Shown here piece after piece: positions 2,182-21,601 of a DNA stretch of 29,066 nucleotides; the stretch's first letter is position 1, and every line of letters starts with the position of its first letter. The notes beneath the pieces were generated by a model. The model had not been told where the DNA came from and did not search any database. It was given only the letters and a program-made list of their open reading frames with translations. The stretch comes from a virus. The DNA is taken from IMG/VR virus record IMGVR_UViG_3300028008_000078, positions 1 to 29,066 of that record. The stretch is one strand, 5' to 3'. A program made the translations under genes and the position numbers.

Positions 2182-3195
2182 ATGGCTTTAATGAATACAT
2201 ACGTGAGAACTCTGGTTCCGGTTAACTGGCGGTCTAGTCCTAGTGGCTGGATTAGTGGTAACTGTCCGATGTGTGTACGCAATGGACAAGCAAGACCAGA
2301 TAAGAAAGGCAGAGGCGGTTTCTTATTTGATGATGATAAGTTTCAATATAATTGTTTTAATTGTAATTATAAAACAGGCTGGAGTCCACAAAGCAAAATT
2401 ACTGTAAGATTAAAAAATCTACTAGTTACACTTGGTGCTGATGAAAGCGATATACAACGTATACAGTTAGAATTATTACGTGAACAAGATGTAGAAACGT
2501 TATTAATAAAAACAGAAAAACGTAAAAATTTAGTTATTGATTGGGATGAGAAAAAACTCCCAGATGACGCAAAACCTTTTATGGACTTTACAGAGCCAGA
2601 TGCAGATTGGACAGAAGCAGTAGCATACTTAACAGATCGTGGATTTGATGTAACTGATTCTAGATTTATGTGGAGCCCAAGTAAACAACATGGAAGAGTA
2701 AACAAAAGATTTATATTACCATTTACATATAAAGGTAAGGTAGTTGGCTATACAGCAAGATGGGCAGGAAATACTATTCCTAACGGAATGCCTAAATATT
2801 ATAATCAACAACCAAAGAAAGACTTTGTATATGGATTAGATAAACAAACTAGTGATAAGCAATTTGTTATTGTAACTGAAGGGCAACTTGATGCTATAGT
2901 TACAGACGGGTGTGCAATTGGTAGTAATAATATAAATGATGAACAAGCAGATATACTACATAGTTTAGAAAAACAAATTATAGTATTACCTGATGCAGAC
3001 GAAGCTGGTAAACTAATGTGTAAATCAGCTATAAAGAACGGTTGGATGGTAGCATTTCCCGAGTGGAATGACTGTAAAGATGCAAGTGATGCCTTGACAA
3101 AATACGGAAGATTGTATACAATAACAAGTATAATAGATAGTGCTGAAAAGAATCCAACTAAAATTGAACTATTAATGAGAAAGTATTGTAAATGA
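2182..3195 (+). CDS. 61: DNA primase, T4 gp61-like
   Basis: The protein is 337 residues, close to T4 gp61 (342). Primase makes the RNA primers for lagging-strand synthesis and works with the hexameric helicase encoded next door. An N-terminal zinc finger is visible (C28-x2-C31 and C58-x2-C61). A Toprim catalytic core follows, with VTEGQLDA (E233 as the metal/acid-base glutamate) and LPDADEAG (D271 and D273 binding Mg2+). The stop overlaps the helicase ATG as ATGA at 3192-3195, giving translational coupling. The start at 2182 has no ribosome binding site; the ATG four codons downstream (2191) is an alternative start. Function is certain at the family level. Confidence 0.95.
   Translation: MALMNTYVRTLVPVNWRSSPSGWISGNCPMCVRNGQARPDKKGRGGFLFDDDKFQYNCFNCNYKTGWSPQSKITVRLKNLLVTLGADESDIQRIQLELLREQDVETLLIKTEKRKNLVIDWDEKKLPDDAKPFMDFTEPDADWTEAVAYLTDRGFDVTDSRFMWSPSKQHGRVNKRFILPFTYKGKVVGYTARWAGNTIPNGMPKYYNQQPKKDFVYGLDKQTSDKQFVIVTEGQLDAIVTDGCAIGSNNINDEQADILHSLEKQIIVLPDADEAGKLMCKSAIKNGWMVAFPEWNDCKDASDALTKYGRLYTITSIIDSAEKNPTKIELLMRKYCK
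3094..3122 (+). promoter_or_regulatory. Possible internal early promoter before helicase
   Basis: TTGACA at 3094-3099, 17 bp spacer, TACAAT at 3117-3122, inside the primase gene and 70 bp before the helicase start. The match to sigma70 is good, but it lies in coding sequence and could be chance. Confidence 0.3.
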
Positions 3196-4595
3196 CAGAA
3201 CAAGCAAAAGAATATAATATAGATCTACAACGATTATTTGTAGAATTTTTAGCACAAGATAAAGATCTGTTTGCTAGAATAAATGGCATTTTAGATCCTG
3301 AATACTTTGATAGAGAATTACGCAAGGGTGTAGAATTTATAAAAGAACATGCAGTAGGATATAGTGCATTACCTACACGTGAACAAATCTTAGCAACAAC
3401 TGGGCTTGAATTACAAGAATTAAAAGATGTCGATGATAGACATAAAAAATGGTTTATAGATGAGTTTGAAGTATTCTGTAGACACAAAGCATTAGAATCG
3501 GCAATTTTAAAAAGTGCAGATTTATTAGAAAAAGGTGATTACGGGCCAGTAGAACGTATGGTAAAAGAAGCAGTACAAGTTGGACTTGCTAAACATATGG
3601 GAACAGACTATTGGGAATCACCAGCAGAACGTATTGAACGTGTTCGTAATCAACGAGGCGGTACAAGTACAGGCTGGGCAGAAGTTGATAAGAAACTATA
3701 TGGTGGATTTAATAGAGGTGAATTGAATATATTTGCTGCACCATCTGGTGGTGGTAAAAGTTTATTCTTACAAAACTTAGGATTAAATTGGGCACTAGCA
3801 GGATTAAACGTTGTATACGTTAGTTTAGAACTTAGTGAAGAATTATGTAGTATGCGATTAGATAGTATGTTAACAGGCATGAATACACGTGATGTATTTA
3901 AAAATGCAGATGATGTAGATTTAAAAGTACGTATGCAAGGTAAAAATGCAGGTAAACTACAAATTGTACAATTACCTAACGGTATTACAATTAATGCTAT
4001 TACTAGCTATTTGCGTGAATATGAAGTTAAGAATGATATTAAAATTGATGCAATTTGTATTGATTATTTAGACTTAATGATGCCAGCACAAAGTAAAGTT
4101 AATCCAAGTGATTTGTTTATTAAAGATAAGTTTGTATCTGAAGAATTACGTAATTTTGCAGTAGAGCATGATATACTATTTGCAACAGCATCTCAGTTAA
4201 ACAGAGCGGCAGTAGAAGAAGTAGAGTTTGATCACTCTCATATTGCTGGTGGTTTAAGTAAGATTCAGACAGCTGATAATGTAATTGGTATCTTTACAAG
4301 TCAAGCTATGCGTGAACGTGGACGTTATCAAATTCAGTTTATGAAAACACGTAGTAGTAGTGGTGTAGGGCAAAAAGTAGACTTAAAGTTTGATATTGCA
4401 GGATTACGTATTGAAGACTTGGATGAAGATGACGCAGGATCTACAATGAACCAACCTAGTGCTATGTTTGAGAAGATTAAAGCACAAAACAAAACAACAC
4501 ACCAAGAAAAGAATATTGCTGAAAATAGTGTGGTAGAAAACACTATAACAGGGCATGATAAACTTCGCAGTATGCTCAAAAGAAGTAATAGTTAG
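3192..4595 (+). CDS. 41: Replicative DNA helicase, T4 gp41-like (DnaB family)
   Basis: The protein is 467 residues (T4 gp41 is 475). It is a hexameric 5'-3' helicase of the DnaB/RecA-like family that unwinds the fork and forms the primosome with gp61. The N-terminal domain (about 1-140) is helical. The RecA-like core begins around 155 with TGWAEVDKKLYGGFNRGEL, followed by the Walker A loop APSGGGKS (183-190). Walker B is in IDAICIDYLDLM (around 285-297). ATASQLNRAAVEEV (about 330) matches the Q/R loop typical of DnaB. The C-terminal 50 residues are polar and probably disordered (the DnaB-type acidic/helper-interaction tail). It is coupled to primase by ATGA. The clean overlap and full length indicate an intact gene. 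Confidence 0.95.
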   Translation: MTEQAKEYNIDLQRLFVEFLAQDKDLFARINGILDPEYFDRELRKGVEFIKEHAVGYSALPTREQILATTGLELQELKDVDDRHKKWFIDEFEVFCRHKALESAILKSADLLEKGDYGPVERMVKEAVQVGLAKHMGTDYWESPAERIERVRNQRGGTSTGWAEVDKKLYGGFNRGELNIFAAPSGGGKSLFLQNLGLNWALAGLNVVYVSLELSEELCSMRLDSMLTGMNTRDVFKNADDVDLKVRMQGKNAGKLQIVQLPNGITINAITSYLREYEVKNDIKIDAICIDYLDLMMPAQSKVNPSDLFIKDKFVSEELRNFAVEHDILFATASQLNRAAVEEVEFDHSHIAGGLSKIQTADNVIGIFTSQAMRERGRYQIQFMKTRSSSGVGQKVDLKFDIAGLRIEDLDEDDAGSTMNQPSAMFEKIKAQNKTTHQEKNIAENSVVENTITGHDKLRSMLKRSNS

Positions 4596-4633: not shown

Positions 4634-4882
4634 ATGAAAAAACGTACTCGAAGTCTATTAGAAGAAATTAACTCGCTTGCTCCTCGCAAGGACAAGACCA
4701 GTATTCTGGAGAGCAAAGGTAATAATGCGATAAGTAGTATTATTAACATTCTTGAGATGATTGACTCTAACTATGACGAAGAGACTGCACAAGATCTTAC
4801 TAAACGTATTATGTTAAGTATTAAAAATAGAGATGCAGAGCGTTTTAATCGTGGAGTTAAGAAAATTAGAGGCCCTAGATGA
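4634..4882 (+). CDS. Small conserved phage protein, unknown
   Basis: An 82-residue, basic, probably all-helical protein: MKKRTRSLLEEINSL at the N-terminus, a helical middle (SSIINILEMIDSNYDEETAQ) and a basic C-terminus (RGVKKIRGPR). No membrane segment or known motif. It is first in a unit behind a late promoter, with CGGAG as ribosome binding site, and overlaps the next gene by 4 bp (ATGA). Co-transcription with the ligase-like DUF6267 gene suggests a shared late role, perhaps in the virion. Function not known. Confidence 0.7.
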   Translation: MKKRTRSLLEEINSLAPRKDKTSILESKGNNAISSIINILEMIDSNYDEETAQDLTKRIMLSIKNRDAERFNRGVKKIRGPR

Positions 4883-6072
4883 AAATAACAGATATTGTAG
4901 GAAGCAAAAAACGTAAACCTAGAAATTCCAGATTACATAGATTAATTGGAAAGGATTTGTTTCAACCTGAAGCTAAAAAACTAAGTGAAGATGCACGTAT
5001 ACAGCACTTAGAAGATTTAATTCTATGGGATGCGTCAACAGGTGCAAGAAAAGCAATTGCTACACTACATCAAGTAGAACAACAACCAAACACAGTTACT
5101 ATTAAATGGGATGGGTCTCCAGCAGTTATATTTGGTCGTAATGAAAAAGGTGAGTTTATATTAACAGATAAAAGTGGATTTACTGCTAAAGGTTATGATG
5201 GTAAACCAACTAGTGCTGAAGGCTTAGAAAAAATGTTATTTAATCGTCCTGGCGCAAGTAATGCTGATGCTACTAAAGCAGCAAACTATAAAGCATTTGC
5301 AGGTAAAATGAGAAGCATCTGGGATAAAGTAGAAGCAACAGTACCGAGTGATTTTAGAGGTTATGTAATGGGCGATTTACTATGGTTTACAACACCAGAT
5401 GTAAAAGAAAACAAATACACATTCACTCCTAATACAACAACATATCAAGTTAAAATAGATAGCGAAGTTGGAAAGAAAATAGCAAGCAGTGATGTAGGTG
5501 TTGTAGTACACATGTCAATTGGACTTGACGGTGAAAAGAGTAAAGTTGATATGTCACAATTCCAAGGTGGACCAACATACATAATGCCACCTGTAATGGT
5601 ACAAAAATCACCAGGTGTAGATATTCCAGCAGTTGACGACTTAGAAAATTATTTAGATAAAAATGCACAAGCAATAGATAAATTGTTTGCAGTACCAGCA
5701 GAATTAAAAATGGCAGACTTTGGTAAGATACTTTATGCTTATATTAATAATAGTGTAAAAACAGGTAACTTAGATAATCTAGGAAGTACATTTCAAGAAT
5801 ATGTTGAAGGAAGTAAATTATCAAAACCAAAACAAGCACGTCTTATGGAATACATAAATAGTAACATAGATGGGTTTAATGCAACTTTTAATTTTATTAA
5901 AGGAATTAAAAAAGTTAAAAATACAGTCATCCAAACCTTAGACGCACAAGACGCAGATGTAGAAGCATATACAAATGGACAACGTGGCGGAGAAGGTTAT
6001 GTAGTTGACAAAGATGTTAAACTTGTTAATAGAGCAGGCTTTACGGCTGCGAACATGGCAAGGAATAATTAA
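4879..6072 (+). CDS. DUF6267-type protein with nucleotidyltransferase (ligase-like) motifs
   Basis: The 397-residue protein resembles a family (DUF6267 as I recall it) conserved in T4-like marine phages. IKWDGSPAVIFGR (residues 75-87) has the K-x-D-G signature of covalent nucleotidyltransferases (ATP-dependent DNA/RNA ligases), with K76 as candidate AMP-accepting lysine; T4 Rnl1 has a similar KEDGS. FRGYVMGDLLWF (159-170) could be motif III. GEGYVVDKDVKLVNR near the C-terminus (371-385) looks like motifs IV and V pressed together, with E372 and K381. A helical N-terminal region carries HLEDLILWDASTGARKA. Ligase or capping-like activity has not been shown as far as I know; this is inference from the motifs. 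It is in a late-promoter block, so a packaging, repair or virion-associated role is possible. Confidence 0.7.
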   Translation: MKITDIVGSKKRKPRNSRLHRLIGKDLFQPEAKKLSEDARIQHLEDLILWDASTGARKAIATLHQVEQQPNTVTIKWDGSPAVIFGRNEKGEFILTDKSGFTAKGYDGKPTSAEGLEKMLFNRPGASNADATKAANYKAFAGKMRSIWDKVEATVPSDFRGYVMGDLLWFTTPDVKENKYTFTPNTTTYQVKIDSEVGKKIASSDVGVVVHMSIGLDGEKSKVDMSQFQGGPTYIMPPVMVQKSPGVDIPAVDDLENYLDKNAQAIDKLFAVPAELKMADFGKILYAYINNSVKTGNLDNLGSTFQEYVEGSKLSKPKQARLMEYINSNIDGFNATFNFIKGIKKVKNTVIQTLDAQDADVEAYTNGQRGGEGYVVDKDVKLVNRAGFTAANMARNN

Positions 6073-6270
6073 ATGTACAGTAAAGAATGTAAACTACATT
6101 TACAAAATGCAAACATGACACGTTGGCAACATTTTAAACATGCAATAAGTATTGCATGGAGTTTAAAAAAAGCATCAATGGCAGTATTTGTACATGCCTT
6201 TGCTCCACGTTATTTTAAAACTTATGCAAGTGAAACGTGTGAATTAATAGCAATGGAGAAAAAACAATGA
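6073..6270 (+). CDS. DUF6356-like small protein
   Basis: A 65-residue protein whose ATG directly follows the upstream stop codon. AIAWSLKKASMAVFVHAFAP-type content (a hydrophobic helix ending in VHAFAPRYFKTYAS) resembles DUF6356, a short family in bacteria and marine phages whose C-terminal half reads HAF-P--F-T-AS. One membrane-associated helix (about residues 30-50) is likely. It overlaps the next gene by 4 bp (ATGA) and is part of the late block. Function unknown; family assignment is from memory. Confidence 0.7.
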   Translation: MYSKECKLHLQNANMTRWQHFKHAISIAWSLKKASMAVFVHAFAPRYFKTYASETCELIAMEKKQ

Positions 6271-7022
6271 CTAAGAAATATACATTGCAACAATATGCGG
6301 CTATGGAAGGTGGACATACAATGAATGATACTACTGAACAATATTCATTTTTAAACACATTAGGCGAAGCCCGTATGTTTAAATCAAAACACCAAATTAG
6401 CAAAGAAGGTGCTAGAACTGTTACAGATCATTTTTTCGTAAGTATGTTAAGTTTATATGCTATGTCAAATGATTACAAGTACGCACCAGTTGCAAAAAAT
6501 TATGCAAAAAATACAAACAGATTTGGAAATTATAATAGACCAAGTCCAAGTGGAACAGATATGTATCAGTCATTACATACAATTTTAAAACCAGAAGGAT
6601 TAATAAATTCAGAAGCTGATAAATTACTTTTAAATAAAGTAAATCTTGATCAGCGTAAAATTAGAATGTTTATGAAGCAAATTGAAACTGGTAAAGTTAA
6701 CCCAGGACAAGCACAAGCGTTTTTCTATAAATTAGAAAAGGATCTAGCAATACAAGATCCTAAACTAAGAGCGGCAAGACGTTTAGTAGGTGATTGGACT
6801 AATTTAACAACTAATCAGCAACAACTAGCGGCAACACAAATTAATAAACATTTTAGACTAAATGCTAGACGCAGCGACTTGTTTCCTATCTTTTCCAAAT
6901 ATTCATCAGAATCAGGATTAGAAATTAATGACAAAGAAAAGCAAGGTATAGGGAAACGTATTGCACGTGGTGCAGCAGCGTTTGCAGCAGGTTATACTGC
7001 TGGTAAACTTACAGGCATGTAA
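6267..7022 (+). CDS. Hypothetical phage protein with C-terminal Gly/Ala helix
   Basis: A 251-residue, basic, mostly helical protein. The N-terminus is polar, and RGYxxAM-like repeats are absent. The C-terminal 20 residues (RGAAAFAAGYTAGKLTG) form a short amphipathic or membrane-inserting Gly/Ala helix. No enzymatic motif is visible. It starts at an ATGA overlap with the DUF6356-like gene and is followed two bases later by the next gene, so the three are one translational unit. A late, virion-associated role is possible but not shown. Confidence 0.7.
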   Translation: MTKKYTLQQYAAMEGGHTMNDTTEQYSFLNTLGEARMFKSKHQISKEGARTVTDHFFVSMLSLYAMSNDYKYAPVAKNYAKNTNRFGNYNRPSPSGTDMYQSLHTILKPEGLINSEADKLLLNKVNLDQRKIRMFMKQIETGKVNPGQAQAFFYKLEKDLAIQDPKLRAARRLVGDWTNLTTNQQQLAATQINKHFRLNARRSDLFPIFSKYSSESGLEINDKEKQGIGKRIARGAAAFAAGYTAGKLTGM

Positions 7023-7024
7023 TA

Positions 7025-7480
7025 ATGGGTGTAAGTAGACCGAACGAAGTTTTAACAGGGTCGACTGATTTCTATACAGTTTATACTTTAATAGATATTA
7101 CAGACTCGGGCGTAGTTAGTCCTAAATCGGATGCAAAAGGATATTATCAAGCCCAAAATTTGAATACGTTTATACAAAGTGTAAGTTTACGTTCTCAACC
7201 AGTACTAAGTTCAGTTGAGTTTTTAGATGCACAAAATTTAGACGATTATGACTTTGGTTCAGACTTTTCCGGAATACAGGATGTTTGGATATTAAAGTTT
7301 GCTAGTGAAACAGCAGACGCATGGAAATATAAAGAAAACAACACTTATATGTTGGTAAAGGATTTTGATAAAATGCCAGTTCATACAATACTTGATGAAA
7401 CGGCTAATATTAACCCTGAGATAGTAGATACTAGTACAGTAAGCAAAAACACGTACTTTAACTATCGCCAAAACATATAA
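7025..7480 (+). CDS. Conserved phage protein, unknown
   Basis: A 151-residue protein starting GVSRPNEVLTGSTDFYTVY and ending TVSKNTYFNYRQNI. It is acidic, has no membrane segment or Cys, and is rich in strand-like stretches (TVYTLIDIT, DVWILKFAS), so probably beta-structured. It follows the upstream gene by 2 bp with no obvious ribosome binding site of its own beyond purine-rich upstream coding sequence. The stop codon lies within the next late promoter (7476-7483). Possibly a small virion component. Confidence 0.7.
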   Translation: MGVSRPNEVLTGSTDFYTVYTLIDITDSGVVSPKSDAKGYYQAQNLNTFIQSVSLRSQPVLSSVEFLDAQNLDDYDFGSDFSGIQDVWILKFASETADAWKYKENNTYMLVKDFDKMPVHTILDETANINPEIVDTSTVSKNTYFNYRQNI

Positions 7481-7483
7481 ATA
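7476..7483 (+). promoter_or_regulatory. T4-type late promoter, exact core
   Basis: TATAAATA followed by C, an exact match to the T4 late core, overlapping the TAA stop of the upstream gene. It is followed by a 60-nt leader before the coiled-coil/membrane protein gene at 7554 and probably drives the block up to about 9461. Confidence 0.7.
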
Positions 7484-7553
7484 CATATGTACAACGAATG
7501 TATATAATTAAATCAGCTCTATAAGACGCTGCTAAAGATTGCGAGAGCAAAAT

Positions 7554-7838
7554 ATGGCAATGAACCAGTCAAGACTTGAGCGTGAAAATCTAGAAGCACA
7601 TGTAGATTTATGTGCAGAGAGATATCGCGTGTTAGAAGAAAAATTAAATAGACTAGAGTCTAAAGTAGACTCTCTGACAGAAACAATGAGTAAGATGGCA
7701 GAAAAACAAACTGCCTCAACTTTATCTAGCAATAAGCTAGTTATTGGTGCTGCCGCAACGGTTATTGCAGGATTGCTTTCCACTGTGGTATTATTACTAC
7801 TAAATTTACAAACAGTAACACCATTGGTAGGTGGATAA
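7554..7838 (+). CDS. Coiled-coil protein with C-terminal membrane anchor (XhlA/holin-like layout)
   Basis: I chose ATG 7554 (94 residues) rather than the in-frame TTG at 7539, because AGAG-rich sequence sits just upstream of 7554. Residues about 10-58 form a heptad-like coiled coil (YRVLEEKLNRLESKVDSL). Residues about 65-88 form one strongly hydrophobic helix (VIGAAATVIAGLLSTVVLLLL), followed by a short tail. Coiled coil plus one C-terminal helix is the layout of XhlA-type proteins and some holins or spanin-like factors, but sequence alone does not decide this. It is first behind an exact late promoter, which suits lysis or virion assembly. Confidence 0.7.
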   Translation: MAMNQSRLERENLEAHVDLCAERYRVLEEKLNRLESKVDSLTETMSKMAEKQTASTLSSNKLVIGAAATVIAGLLSTVVLLLLNLQTVTPLVGG

Positions 7839-7841
7839 TAT

Positions 7842-8129
7842 ATGTTACTAAACGAGGCATATAACACAGTTGTTACAGAAGCAAAAGTAGTTTTTGCCAA
7901 ACGTGGACAATCAGTAACGAGAAAATTTCGTTGCACTGTAGGACCACGTAAAGGAAGGGTTGTTGCAAATCCTAGTCAATGTGCAGCCCCAATAAATCTT
8001 AAGAAGAGATTTATTTTAAAAAGAACAAAAGCCGCCAAAGGTGCTAGGATGAATAAGAAGGCGCAAAGAACAAAAAGACTAAGCCCAGCTAGTCGTATTG
8101 TTGCAAGGTTAAATAAGGCAAGAGGATGA
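7842..8129 (+). CDS. Small, very basic conserved phage protein
   Basis: A 95-residue protein with a very high Lys/Arg content, especially in the C-terminal half (KKRFILKRTKAAKGARMNKK). A Cys pair brackets TVGPRKGRVVANPSQ. I recall similar small proteins with a RK-RC--GPRKGR--NP--C motif in marine T4-like phages. It may bind nucleic acid and could be packaged or scaffold-associated; this is inference from charge. It overlaps the next gene by 4 bp (ATGA). Confidence 0.75.
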   Translation: MLLNEAYNTVVTEAKVVFAKRGQSVTRKFRCTVGPRKGRVVANPSQCAAPINLKKRFILKRTKAAKGARMNKKAQRTKRLSPASRIVARLNKARG

Positions 8130-8635
8130 ACATTTTAAATAACAGTACTATTGATACAGTAATAGATTTTGCAAACGTAAAGTTTGGAATGGAACTAACA
8201 AAAGAACAAGTTGTTGGTCAATTAAAAGGATTATCTTTTTCACAAACTTTAAAATTACTAAGCACAATGAAAAACGATGACGGCAATGGCTTCTCAGAAA
8301 TTATAGATTTAAGTTCTGTCTCAGAAGCATACGGAACAGTAGCTACGGCACAGCCAAGCAGAGCAACAATTAGATCACAAGGATCGGGTGTAGAACAAAG
8401 ACGTGCAAACATTTCTAATCAAGATGCGAATAGAGATGCAAAAGGTACTCAAAGATTTACAGCAGGTTCTAACAAACAACCAACTGGACAAGCTGGTCCA
8501 AGAGCTAGCAATAAAACAGATCCAGATGATGATCAAAGAAATCAAAACGCGGCCGGCGTTGCACAAAACAGCAACCAATCGGCCTATAACGCACAAGAAA
8601 TTGAACGCCTAAAAAAGGCAGCCGGGATAGCATAA
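8126..8635 (+). CDS. Hypothetical protein with Q/N-rich disordered C-terminal half
   Basis: A 169-residue protein. Residues 1-65 look helical and folded (TKEQVVGQLKGLSFSQTLKLL). From about 75 to 155 it is dominated by Gln, Asn, Ala, Arg, Ser and Gly, typical of disorder, and it ends with a short helix (NAQEIERLKKAAGIA). The terminal helix may be a docking motif, as in scaffold or tail proteins. TAATG overlap with the next gene. No family recognised. Confidence 0.7.
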   Translation: MNILNNSTIDTVIDFANVKFGMELTKEQVVGQLKGLSFSQTLKLLSTMKNDDGNGFSEIIDLSSVSEAYGTVATAQPSRATIRSQGSGVEQRRANISNQDANRDAKGTQRFTAGSNKQPTGQAGPRASNKTDPDDDQRNQNAAGVAQNSNQSAYNAQEIERLKKAAGIA

Positions 8636-8844
8636 TGAAAAGCATTGAAACTCCGGGCGGAATCCCAACATTTTTATCACTACACGAAAGCGAGATGTAC
8701 GAAAATTTATTAGAACGTACATGCAAAGAAGATTTATCTGAACGTGAGTGTTACCTAATTCAAAGCCTAATTAACAAAAATATTGTTAAGAAAATAGTGG
8801 AGAATAACAAAGTATATTTTGAACGAATGAAAGGGAGCCTATAA
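8635..8844 (+). CDS. Small hypothetical protein
   Basis: A 69-residue helical protein. Its N-terminus, KSIETPGGIPTFLSLHESEMY, is followed by two predicted helices. It contains two Cys (CKEDLSERECYL), not arranged as a metal site. Start and stop both overlap neighbours by one base (TAATG), so it is translated as part of the 7476-9461 block. Function unknown. Confidence 0.65.
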   Translation: MKSIETPGGIPTFLSLHESEMYENLLERTCKEDLSERECYLIQSLINKNIVKKIVENNKVYFERMKGSL

Positions 8845-9461
8845 TGCCAACAAAAGAAACGCAAGGAATGATGGACATCATTAATAAACTTAATGAAGCT
8901 ACAAACAAAGAACCAACAGCACATCAAAAATTAAAATCACAAAGAAATACACCAACACCAAACGTAATTGCAGGAGTAAGCAAAGACGCACAAGGTATGT
9001 TAGAAATATTACAAAAACTTGACGAAGCTACACATAAAGCTACTGAAGAAATTATTGAAGAATCTCATAACGATATTACTTTATCAGCAGTTACTAAAAA
9101 AGGTGATAGTGTTACAGTGGGTGAATTTGAAGTTGTATTAGAAAAAGCTATGCTTATTCCTGGTATGACTAAAACGTTCTATAATATTAAAGAAGGCAAT
9201 GAAATTATATACAAACAAATAGCACTGTTCGAAACAGCTATGGGTATTGTAAAAGGTTTATTATTTGGGAAAGATACAAAAGTTGAAAGACTATTAGATT
9301 TAGATAACAGATATTCTAGTGCTTTAGCAGAAGCAGCCACGTTCAAAATGAAGGCAAAATCACTTACAGAGTCAAGTAAGATAGATATTGCTATGGCAAA
9401 ACAAGGATCTGCACTGCAAAAGATGAAAACTATCAAAAATCAAATCAAAAGTAGCCTTTAA
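8844..9461 (+). CDS. Probable structural/scaffold protein with duplicated N-terminal helix motif
   Basis: A 205-residue protein. The first 70 residues hold two copies of the same helical motif about 43 residues apart: TQGMMDIINKLNEATNK (residues 6-22) and AQGMLEILQKLDEATHK (about 50-66), separated by a polar linker. A second region (about 75-150) looks beta/alpha, and the C-terminus is a Lys-rich helix. Duplicated short helices on a flexible linker suggest bivalent binding to a partner, as in scaffold or internal virion proteins. It overlaps the previous stop by one base. No enzyme motif. Confidence 0.7.
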   Translation: MPTKETQGMMDIINKLNEATNKEPTAHQKLKSQRNTPTPNVIAGVSKDAQGMLEILQKLDEATHKATEEIIEESHNDITLSAVTKKGDSVTVGEFEVVLEKAMLIPGMTKTFYNIKEGNEIIYKQIALFETAMGIVKGLLFGKDTKVERLLDLDNRYSSALAEAATFKMKAKSLTESSKIDIAMAKQGSALQKMKTIKNQIKSSL

Positions 9462-9462
9462 G

Positions 9463-9470
9463 CATAAATA
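9463..9470 (+). promoter_or_regulatory. T4-type late promoter
   Basis: CATAAATA followed by C, just past the previous gene's stop and 35 nt before the ATG at 9506. It probably drives 9506-11946. Confidence 0.65.
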
Positions 9471-9505
9471 CAATATATAATAAAAAACCTAGTGGGGTAT
9501 TGAAC

Positions 9506-10270
9506 ATGGAATTAAAACAATTACAAGTGAACAAACTAACCAAGTTAGATAATGTTCTAAAAGAAGTATTTGGTATGCAGTTTGACTTTGGTGCAGGTAA
9601 TGCAAAATTAACCAAAGTAAAAACAGTTACTGAAAAGAAAATCAACGCATTACGTGAAAGCGGCGTTGAAGTTAACGATAAACAATATCAGAAGTTATTG
9701 TTAGTATTAGAAGGTATAGACACAGTTATGAAAAACAATCCAATTTTGGAAAGTGAACTTGATCAAGCTGAAGTACTTTTAGCGGCAAAGCAAATGGCAG
9801 ACGATCTACAAAAAATGGCTGAAAATTTAGCTAGCATGCAAGTAGAAGAATTAATGAGCATCACTAACGCAATGAAAGAAGAAGTTGGTGTAGCAGAAGC
9901 AGATGCATTTAACACATCTGCAGAAACAGCAATTAGTTCAGCACTTGAAGCAGTTAAGACAGCAAATCAGCAAGTTGCTGATGCAGTTTTAGTAGCACAA
10001 GGCCAAGCACCAGAAACAGATATGTCAATGGACACAGGTCCAGAACTTGATGCACCAGCAGATCCAGAAATGGATATGGATGCAGCAATTGAACCTGCGG
10101 CAGACGACTTTGAAGGCACTGATGCAGCAGACGCTGATACCGATATAGACGGCAGAGAAATGAAAGAAGACTCATATCTAAATGCACTACGTATGGTAAA
10201 AGAAGCACAAGCAGACGGCAAGATAAACAAAGAAGTATTAAAACAAGCATTTGCGGCACTGAAGAAGTAA
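9506..10270 (+). CDS. Acidic coiled-coil protein, probably virion or prohead core
   Basis: ATG 9506 is preferred to the in-frame TTG at 9500; GTGGGGTA lies upstream. The protein has 254 residues. Residues about 1-70 are helical and basic. About 70-160 form long heptad helices (AKQMADDLQKMAENLASMQ). About 165-215 is highly acidic and low in complexity (DAPADPEMDMDAAIEPAADD). The C-terminal helix (NALRMVKEAQADG to FAALKK) may be a docking helix. Acidic scaffolding-like composition and the late promoter suggest a prohead core or tail-chaperone role, but no T4 homologue is recognised. Confidence 0.75.
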   Translation: MELKQLQVNKLTKLDNVLKEVFGMQFDFGAGNAKLTKVKTVTEKKINALRESGVEVNDKQYQKLLLVLEGIDTVMKNNPILESELDQAEVLLAAKQMADDLQKMAENLASMQVEELMSITNAMKEEVGVAEADAFNTSAETAISSALEAVKTANQQVADAVLVAQGQAPETDMSMDTGPELDAPADPEMDMDAAIEPAADDFEGTDAADADTDIDGREMKEDSYLNALRMVKEAQADGKINKEVLKQAFAALKK

Positions 10271-17533: not shown

Positions 17534-19087
17534 ATGGCAAACGATTTTGTAGATGGCTTAAAAGACGCAAGTGATTATATCAATAGAACAACTGTTGACA
17601 TTCCTACTGGTGCTGATATAGACCTAAATTCTGGTACTGTAACAGCTCAAACACAAGCGTACAGCTTGAAAGAAATCATTTGTAGCCTACTAGCCGGAAA
17701 CGGCATAAAACTCCCAAATTTGCAAATATGCTTAAAAATTAACATAGGTAGATTAATACCTGAGATACCTGCAGGCTTGGAAGATTTAAGAGATGCATTA
17801 CAAGAAGCAGAAAATGCATTAGACGAATTTATAGCACACACTAACATTGATAATGCACTAGGAAGATTAAACGCAGCCATAGCAGAATTTGCGGCTATTG
17901 CTAATATGATTAACTTCTGTGGTACACCAGTTGTTCCACGTGCTATTCCAAATGTATTAAAAGATGCAATGGGAAGTTTTACAGGTGCTGGTAAAGATAT
18001 ACTTGATACATTAGGTCAAATTGCAGATGGCGATATTGGTGGATGTATTGGCACTGATGGTAAATTTAATCCAAACTTATTTACAGGTGGACTATTACAA
18101 AAACTAGGAGGACAACTTAACAACCTAGCAAATTTACCAGATGCAGTCAAAAATAATATTATAAATGATTTGAATGCATTTAAAAATGATATTGGAAACT
18201 TAATTGAATTTGAAAACAATTTTGCAGGTACAGAATCAGGCGGACAAGGTGGTAGTTTATTTGCACCTCAAGAAAGAACTAATACAGGTGTTGGTGTTGC
18301 AATAGATACAGATAACATGACACTTGCAAAAAGTCAACAGTATGCAAGTAACTTACAATCAGTTTATAATAGCTTAAAAGGTTATGATGTTGATAGTGAT
18401 GGGAACAATATATTCCATTATCTATTAGAACCTGAAATGATTAATAGGTTAGAAAATGATGGTGACCCAACAGTACCATTATCTGAAAGAGAACCAATAT
18501 ACGATCATTGTAATAGAGTTATAGGTTACACTGAACGTAATACACAAACAGTACAAGAAGCCAGTTCTGGAAGTCCTAGAATTGCACAATCACAACCAGG
18601 TATGTCCGGATTAGCAGAAACTGGAACAAAAGTTACAGCTTCACCTGCATCTACTACAAATTTAAATGCGGAAACACCAACAAGTAGTGATTCTTCGGGA
18701 ACAGGTGCAACTGGACCAACTGGACCAACCGGTGCAACAGGTGCAACAGGTGCAACAGGACCAGCCGGTGCTAACGGAGTAGATGGACAAAATGGTACAA
18801 ATGGAGTAAATGGACAAGATGGTGCTCAAGGACCACAAGGACCAACTGGTGCTCAAGGACCACAAGGACCAACTGGTGCAACAGGTGCAACAGGACCAGC
18901 GGGTGCAACAGGACCAGCAGGAACACCAGGAACACCTGCTATTGCAGAAAATGGTACTACATCACAAAGACCTAGTAGTCCAGTACCTGGGCAATTCTTT
19001 TTTAATACAGATACGGCTATGTTTGAAGGGTGGAATGGAACAACATGGGTACAGTTAGTACCATCACAATTCCAACAAACCCCATAA
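17534..19087 (+). CDS. Virion fibre-like protein with collagen-like Gly-X-Y region
   Basis: A 517-residue protein. Residues about 1-245 are helical, with a Cys in each of [19 protein letters not shown] and GGCIGT. About 245-385 are polar and probably linker-like. About 391-468 hold 26 uninterrupted Gly-X-Y triplets (18704-18937), expected to form a collagen-type triple helix. The end ([20 protein letters not shown] then [12 protein letters not shown]) is a short beta motif common at the tips of phage fibres. It directly follows the PAAR gene, suggesting a baseplate/tail location; host adhesion is a reasonable inference. No late promoter lies immediately before it. Confidence 0.85.
18704..18937 (+). 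repeat. Collagen-like coding repeat with 27-bp tandem duplication
   Basis: The stretch encodes 26 Gly-X-Y triplets (mainly GAT, GPA, GPT, GPQ, with GVD, GQN, GTN in the middle). Within it, the 27 bp at 18821-18847 (encoding GAQGPQGPT) are repeated exactly at 18848-18874, a recent-looking tandem duplication. Confidence 0.85.
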
Positions 19088-21187: not shown

Positions 21188-21601
21188 ATGGCATATTCGG
21201 CAAAAGTGTTAGACCATTATAATAACCCACGAAATGTAGGTAAAATGGATGCTAATGCTACAAACGTAGGAACAGGTATGGTAGGAGCTCCTGCTTGTGG
21301 TGACGTAATGAGGTTACAAATTAAAGTAACAGAAGATGGTATTATAGAAGATGCAAAGTTTAAAACATATGGATGCGGCAGTGCAATTGCTAGCTCAAGT
21401 ATGGTGACAACTATGCTAAAAGGTATGAATTTAATACAAGCTAGTGAAATTAAAAATACAACAATAGTTGAAGAATTAGCATTACCTCCAGTTAAGATTC
21501 ACTGTAGTGTATTAGCTGAAGACGCAATTAAAGCTGCGGTTAGAGATTATCAAGGTAAAAACCCTGATGATGTTGATGGCAACTATTATGAATTAAAATA
21601 G
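21188..21601 (+). CDS. iscU: Fe-S cluster assembly scaffold IscU
   Basis: A 137-residue protein with AGGAG before ATG 21188. All functional residues of IscU are present at E. coli numbering: C37 and D39 (APACGDV), C63 (YGCGSA), H105 and C106 (KIHCSVL). The LPPVK motif (99-103), recognised by the HscA chaperone, is intact. IscU receives sulfur from a cysteine desulfurase and builds [2Fe-2S]/[4Fe-4S] clusters for transfer to apo-proteins. No iscS, hscA or hscB lies in the window, so it would use host partners. It is unusual cargo for a phage; probably an auxiliary metabolic gene. Confidence 0.93.
   Translation: MAYSAKVLDHYNNPRNVGKMDANATNVGTGMVGAPACGDVMRLQIKVTEDGIIEDAKFKTYGCGSAIASSSMVTTMLKGMNLIQASEIKNTTIVEELALPPVKIHCSVLAEDAIKAAVRDYQGKNPDDVDGNYYELK

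Follow-up and report, generated by a model that had tools for sequence, protein, structure and literature searches.

What does DUF6267, a protein family shared by many marine phages, do? The question is raised by an open reading frame (ORF) of 397 amino acids at positions 4879–6072 of IMG/VR virus record IMGVR_UViG_3300028008_000078, of which we analysed the whole stretch of 29,066 nucleotides (positions 1 to 29,066; hereafter, the window). The ORF lies on the + strand, as do all of its parts and neighbours located below; its reverse strand contains many stop codons and no gene. The encoded protein matches DUF6267 (PF19782) with 123.7 bits against a gathering cut-off of 27 (E = 1.5e-35) and is assigned to phrog_455 in PHROGs. 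No function is given for the family in Pfam, NCBIfam or PHROGs, and the literature searched, which excludes subscription papers and preprints, yielded no published mention of it. A first-pass annotation of the window had proposed an unrecognised AMP/GMP transferase, RNA ligase or protein AMPylator. Conservation and fold matches support the core of that proposal, a covalent nucleotidyltransferase; which acceptor it uses does not follow from the sequence. We consider it likely, with a probability of about 0.75, that DUF6267 is a divergent, RNA-ligase-like covalent (lysyl) nucleotidyltransferase of the ligase/mRNA-capping superfamily.

The motifs on which the annotation relied are all present where it placed them: KWDGSP at residues 76–81, GYVMGD at 161–166, EGYVV at 372–376 and KL at 381–382. 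Their order, read as I, III, IV and V, is colinear with that of T4 Rnl1 (I-Ia-III-IIIa-IV-V). Motifs IV and V are closely packed at the C terminus, again as described, and only ~12 residues remain after R385 of motif V; the protein therefore lacks a C-terminal oligonucleotide/oligosaccharide-binding (OB) fold, and the predicted structure ends in one helix. Of the 48 long ORFs of the window, just one, the DUF6267 ORF itself, contains KxDG / [GA][DE]h / EGhh / Kh in this order. As this ordered pattern also arises in 0.12% of 20,000 shuffles of the protein, the match taken alone is suggestive rather than proof. Family-wide conservation is much stronger evidence than this estimate of chance.

Using tblastn, we obtained at least 178 phage records, all below 60% identity. 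Most are Kyanoviridae, T4-like phages of marine cyanobacteria, accompanied by phages of Pelagibacter, Methylophilales, Vibrio, Pseudoalteromonas and others. DUF6267 matches were found in more than 570 stretches of viral contigs, with window-type, freshwater-type, cyanophage-type and compact (~300 amino acids) members; the genome scan returned chiefly marine metagenome-assembled contigs, and all listed matches that carry an annotation are labelled 'hypothetical'. Among 284 homologous ORFs, picked by profile E-value/score and not by motif, KxDG is present in 284 and EGxV...KxVxR in 282, the other two having KLIDR. K76, whose conservation the first-pass annotation had named as a test, is invariant, and the motif pattern is kept among members at 20–30% identity. 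In one locus (L029, 3837–5135), the DUF6267 frame passes at KLVN into NlpC/P60-like sequence near the contig end; a frameshift or a chimeric assembly is the probable cause.

A set of 69 representatives shows how far this conservation extends along the protein. Motifs I and IV/V were criteria in choosing the set; H43, K98, D166, N185, Y189, H211, K347 and N392 were not. Residues invariant in 69/69 are H43, K76, W77, D78, G79, P81, G86 and K98 on the motif I side; D166, N185, Y189, H211 and K347 in the middle part; and E372, G373, V375, K381, V383, R385, F388 and N392 in the C-terminal part. Upstream of motif I lies a conserved H43-x-E45-D46 block (5005–5016; E45 and D46 each in 68/69), followed by motif I itself, K76-W-D-G-S-P81 (5104–5121), in which K76 is the proposed nucleotidyl-lysine, and by a motif Ia-like D97-K98-S-G-F101 (5167–5181; F101 in 67/69). 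D166 lies in the motif III-like segment G161-YVMGD166-LLW169 (5359–5385), and H211 in a motif IIIa-like strand, DVGVVVHMS, at residues 206–214 (5494–5520), assigned from the structural model and the alignment. A helical domain (residues 245–357; 5611–5949) with a near-invariant N290 and the invariant K347 separates IIIa from motif IV, E372-G-Y/F-V-V376 (5992–6006). The motif V-like V380-K381-L-V-N-R385 (6016–6033) follows.

An AlphaFold2 model of the window protein (model 1), built on a 35-sequence alignment, reached a predicted local distance difference test score (pLDDT) of 87.6 and a predicted template modelling score of 0.81. In the N-terminal half, strand 73–75 leads directly into the loop with K76, followed by strands 82–87 and 93–97, K98 and a helical segment. 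The middle comprises strand 161–169 with D166, strands 179–192, a helix and strand 206–214. After the helical insertion (predicted helices 249–356) come strands 361–365, 374–376 (in EGYVV) and 380–382 (with KL) and the final helix. Model 2, of a compact homologue of 309 amino acids that is ~23% identical to the window protein by alignment (pLDDT 88.7), shows the same order of elements with a shorter inserted helical domain.

We compared both models with solved structures using Foldseek. For model 1, among the 50 matches listed, all those with a probability of at least 0.15 are covalent nucleotidyltransferases: DNA ligase III (0.60), DNA ligase I (up to 0.51), Trl1 tRNA ligase, T4 Rnl2, LigD and tRNA ligase. 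The remaining listed matches, at 0.10 or below, are mostly proteins with long helices, for example CorA and cohesin. The two best matches of model 2 are mRNA capping enzyme 1p16 and the NAD+ DNA ligase LigA 1ta8, then archaeal and human DNA ligases, TbREL1, NgrRnl and Trl1; every other match listed above 0.05 is a ligase of the same superfamily, and the sole other class listed is redundant carbonic anhydrase entries at 0.03 or below. In a viral structure library, an RNA ligase from Agrobacterium phage Atu_ph07 ranked first once DUF6267 relatives were set aside (E = 2.9e-3, probability 0.97), and more RNA ligases came after it. Both models, from different queries, thus retrieve ligases and capping enzymes as their best non-family matches, and the strand order around the motifs fits. 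The lack of a ligase fold, which the first-pass annotation had named as its other possible refutation, was not observed, as far as prediction tools can tell. DUF6267 probably has a ligase/capping-type nucleotidyltransferase fold, for which the main support is that the predicted models converge independently on one superfamily; no match to a solved structure is formally significant. Because conserved active-site residues accompany this probable fold, DUF6267 is probably a nucleotide-transferring enzyme.

Several results weigh against this assignment. For neither model did Foldseek give a match to the Protein Data Bank (PDB) at E = 1e-3 (all E-values >0.08), and global template modelling scores to PDB structures are low, at most 0.27. 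Searches of PDB sequences with phmmer and hmmsearch, using the window protein and two alignments, found no ligase. Alignment by hhalign to the T4 Rnl1 and Rnl2 families was not significant: with more sequences, exactly motifs IV–V (EGYV...K) were aligned with Rnl1, motif IV falling on its EGYVA, and 3 of 60 column shuffles scored as high. Motif III has, on its strand, an invariant Asp (69/69) where known ligases have Glu; motif V has one Lys (K381) instead of Lys-x-Lys, the second being Val/Ile, with an invariant Arg at +4. The commonest partner of DUF6267 in phage genomes, a HIGH-type (NMNAT-like) nucleotidylyltransferase, is to our knowledge no standard RNA-repair enzyme. Finally, polymerase beta (pol-beta)-like domains fused to some members were considered as RlaP (PF10127), a candidate rejected for want of a Pfam RlaP match. 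Given the PDB E-values and the lack of a significant profile link to Rnl1 or Rnl2, the superfamily assignment is remote. As the profile similarity that defines the two T4 families was tested and was not significant, we do not file DUF6267 under either.

We infer the catalysis, cofactor, acceptor and biological role as follows. K76 of KWDG would attack the alpha-phosphate of a nucleoside triphosphate, presumably ATP, to form a lysyl-nucleoside monophosphate. D166 of motif III, the IIIa strand, E372 of motif IV and K381/R385 of motif V would bind nucleotide and metal, perhaps assisted by the invariant K347 of the inserted helical domain. The nucleoside monophosphate would then be handed on; the likeliest acceptor is an RNA end with a 5'-phosphate, which would be sealed to a 3'-OH. 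The proposed role is RNA repair during infection. We put RNA as the acceptor at about even odds.

The gene neighbourhood provides further context. In the window, the DUF6267 gene has replication genes upstream and head/virion genes downstream. We counted neighbours in 27 dereplicated window-type, 30 cyanophage-type and 7 compact loci. A Toprim DNA primase (2182–3195) is conserved in 23/27 window-type loci, and a DnaB/gp41-type replicative helicase (3192–4595) in 25/27 window-type, 22/30 cyanophage-type and 4/7 compact loci. The 82-amino-acid 5' neighbour (4634–4882; phrog_11854, head and packaging), which overlaps the DUF6267 start, and a 251-amino-acid 3' neighbour of unknown function (6267–7022) are each present in 26/27 window-type loci. 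Directly after the primase and helicase, the block at 4634–10270 contains head-protein PHROGs and small ORFs that carry hxE[AGS] sites close to the N terminus; it looks like a prohead-core or internal protein cluster.

This setting bears on a tentative alternative, to which we give well below even odds: in leader-bearing clades, the window included, the protein may be packed in the head, trimmed by a gp21-type protease, ejected with the DNA and act at once in the host. Such packaging is compatible with any acceptor. The window protein starts with a basic, disordered leader (residues 1–39; 4879–4995; pLDDT <50 for residues 7–39). Among 30 representatives, all non-cyanophage members, 18 leaders have an [ILVF]xE[AGS] site, typically ~9 residues before HxED and resembling T4 prohead protease sites; 5.4 were expected, and none of 1,000 shuffles, which ignore relatedness, reached this number. 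A gp21-type prohead protease is encoded in 6 of 8 records tested, and the block around the gene is rich in head proteins and protease-like sites. Against packaging, the closest record (G001) gave no PF03420 match, and the window leader itself has no strict hxE site followed by A, G or S, only the loosely matching LSE/D at residues 35–38 (4981–4992). Cyanophage-type and compact members also lack the leader. Two of the compact proteins, both encoded far from the HIGH gene, are not reported in virions: S-CREM2 gp87 (OR473000.1) is missing from the published virion table, and SSCSM1_257 of S-SCSM1 (MK867354.2) is not marked as a virion protein in the published proteome.

Rather unlikely, in our judgement, is an enzyme of the same fold that acts on a protein or small molecule instead of nucleic-acid ends, possibly together with its HIGH-type (NMNAT/NadR-like) partner. 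Such an enzyme might, for example, AMPylate a host target, transfer a mononucleotide to a metabolite or take part in NAD-linked chemistry. The close association of the two genes speaks for it. A HIGH-type gene lies within 4 kb of DUF6267 in 28/30 cyanophage-type and 6/7 compact loci (34/37 together), P-HM1, S-CAM4 and Vibrio phage EniLVp02 carry the two genes side by side, and each of the 6 reference phages tested has both. The two are joined in one protein in S-PM2 (591 amino acids), in locus L059 and in phrog_455 members (764 positions). Published work places the HIGH partner in virions of S-SM1 (PMC3037559), S-CREM2 (PMC10665884) and S-SCSM1 (PMC9602691), but S-CREM2 gp87 and SSCSM1_257, the DUF6267 proteins of the latter two, are not reported as virion proteins, and just 1/27 window-type loci has a HIGH-type gene near DUF6267.

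Other partners point in both directions. A zeta-toxin/PNK-like kinase is found near DUF6267 in 4/30 cyanophage-type loci, and in Pelagibacter phage HTVC008M a P-loop kinase of this type (L070, 6718–7380) lies between the DUF6267 and HIGH genes, an arrangement that resembles the kinase and HIGH pairing of NadR. According to published reviews, HIGH adenylyltransferases with P-loop kinases belong to NadR-like NAD+ salvage (PMC9503650), and pol-beta nucleotidyltransferases (RlaP) and kinases accompany phage RNA ligases (PMC7824862). An N-terminal domain with the pol-beta nucleotidyltransferase signature GSxG...DID is fused to DUF6267 in three window-type loci (L118, L122 and L125) and in L059. The 886-amino-acid protein of L059 (3119–5779) combines this signature with DUF6267 and HIGH, three nucleotidyl-transfer folds in one chain. 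Window-type DUF6267 with a pol-beta-like N-terminal GSVGKKEFSGDIDIAV domain was seen in L118 (4077–6122), L122, L125 and L135. These fusion domains have no Pfam or PHROG match, and phmmer against the PDB gave nothing meaningful; as the RlaP and PDB comparisons found nothing, the pol-beta-like label reflects the GSxG...DxD signature alone. The pol-beta and kinase leads favour RNA repair and the HIGH/NadR leads NAD-linked chemistry, and they do not decide between the two.

That DUF6267 seals DNA nicks as a ligase of the phage replisome is less probable still. DUF6267 is conserved beside the gp41 helicase and primase, and no DNA ligase (PF01068/PF01653) was detected in P-HM1, HTVC008M and several other DUF6267 records, two cyanophage-type or compact ones among them. 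However, a canonical ATP DNA ligase is encoded alongside DUF6267 in G001 (the contig of a 96%-identical relative), G002 and Vibrio phage EniLVp02. DUF6267 also has no OB fold, its KWDGxP lacks the Arg of KxDGxR, and an RNA ligase is its best fold match in the viral structure library. A true Rnl1-type ligase (PF09511) accompanies it in record G006. Because these canonical enzymes coexist with it, DUF6267 is not simply a substitute for DNA ligase or Rnl1, at least in those phages. DUF6267 as the sole DNA ligase of its phage is disfavoured, as three records encode both.

The Asp of motif III and the lone Lys of motif V, which depart from active ligases, would also suit an enzymatically dead, ligase-like scaffold with a structural use and relic motifs, but this is very improbable, as full invariance of K76, D166, E372 and K381 at 20–30% identity is typical of a selected active site.

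More speculatively, and at roughly the level of the less favoured proposals above, DUF6267 may represent a new class of lysyl-nucleotidyltransferase with an inserted substrate domain, working with the HIGH NMNAT-like enzyme and sometimes a pol-beta-like nucleotidyltransferase in an unseen repair or modification pathway, and, in some clades, travelling in the capsid and entering the host with the DNA. If the RNA-ligase-like assignment is true, an activity in nucleic-acid end processing or nucleotidylation has gone unrecognised in abundant ocean phages. In that case DUF6267 would also be a partner for the 'cytidylyltransferase/NMNAT' long noticed in cyanophage virions, and might yield a new ligase reagent. 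Elsewhere in the window, a 517-amino-acid probable tail-fibre protein contains collagen-like GxY repeats (17534–19087), and an ORF at 21188–21601 appears, judged by eye from the sequence, to encode an IscU/NifU-like iron-sulfur scaffold.

Among known systems, T4 Rnl1 (gp63; PF09511) offers the closest comparison in motif layout. Both proteins share the order I-Ia-III-IIIa-IV-V without an OB fold, and a KxDGS motif I, after which come two strands and a block that reads FxSKG in Rnl1 and LTDKSGF in DUF6267. The spacing from K76 to K98 resembles that from K99 to the FKSKG block of T4 Rnl1, and in both EGYV is followed shortly by K-h. They differ in the motif III Asp and in KxVxR in place of KxK, and the helical domain is inserted before motif IV in DUF6267, whereas it is appended after motif V in Rnl1. 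T4 Rnl2 and TbREL1 are linked to DUF6267 by Foldseek matches (2hvr, 1s68 and 1xdn) and an EGYV motif IV; by contrast, Rnl2 has a KIHG motif I, a motif IV with Lys (EGYVLK) and a C-terminal helical domain. With ATP and NAD DNA ligases and mRNA capping enzymes, DUF6267 shares fold matches (DNA ligases III and I, LigD, LigA and 1p16) and the KxDG nucleophile motif, but it lacks their C-terminal OB fold and has KWDGxP in place of KxDGxR. The HIGH-type nucleotidylyltransferase ('cytidylyltransferase', T4-GC190, phrog_3041, NMNAT-like) is a partner by genome position and fusion and is not homologous to DUF6267: it has a Rossmann-like HIGH fold, for which a covalent enzyme-nucleotide intermediate of the kind proposed here for K76 is not expected.
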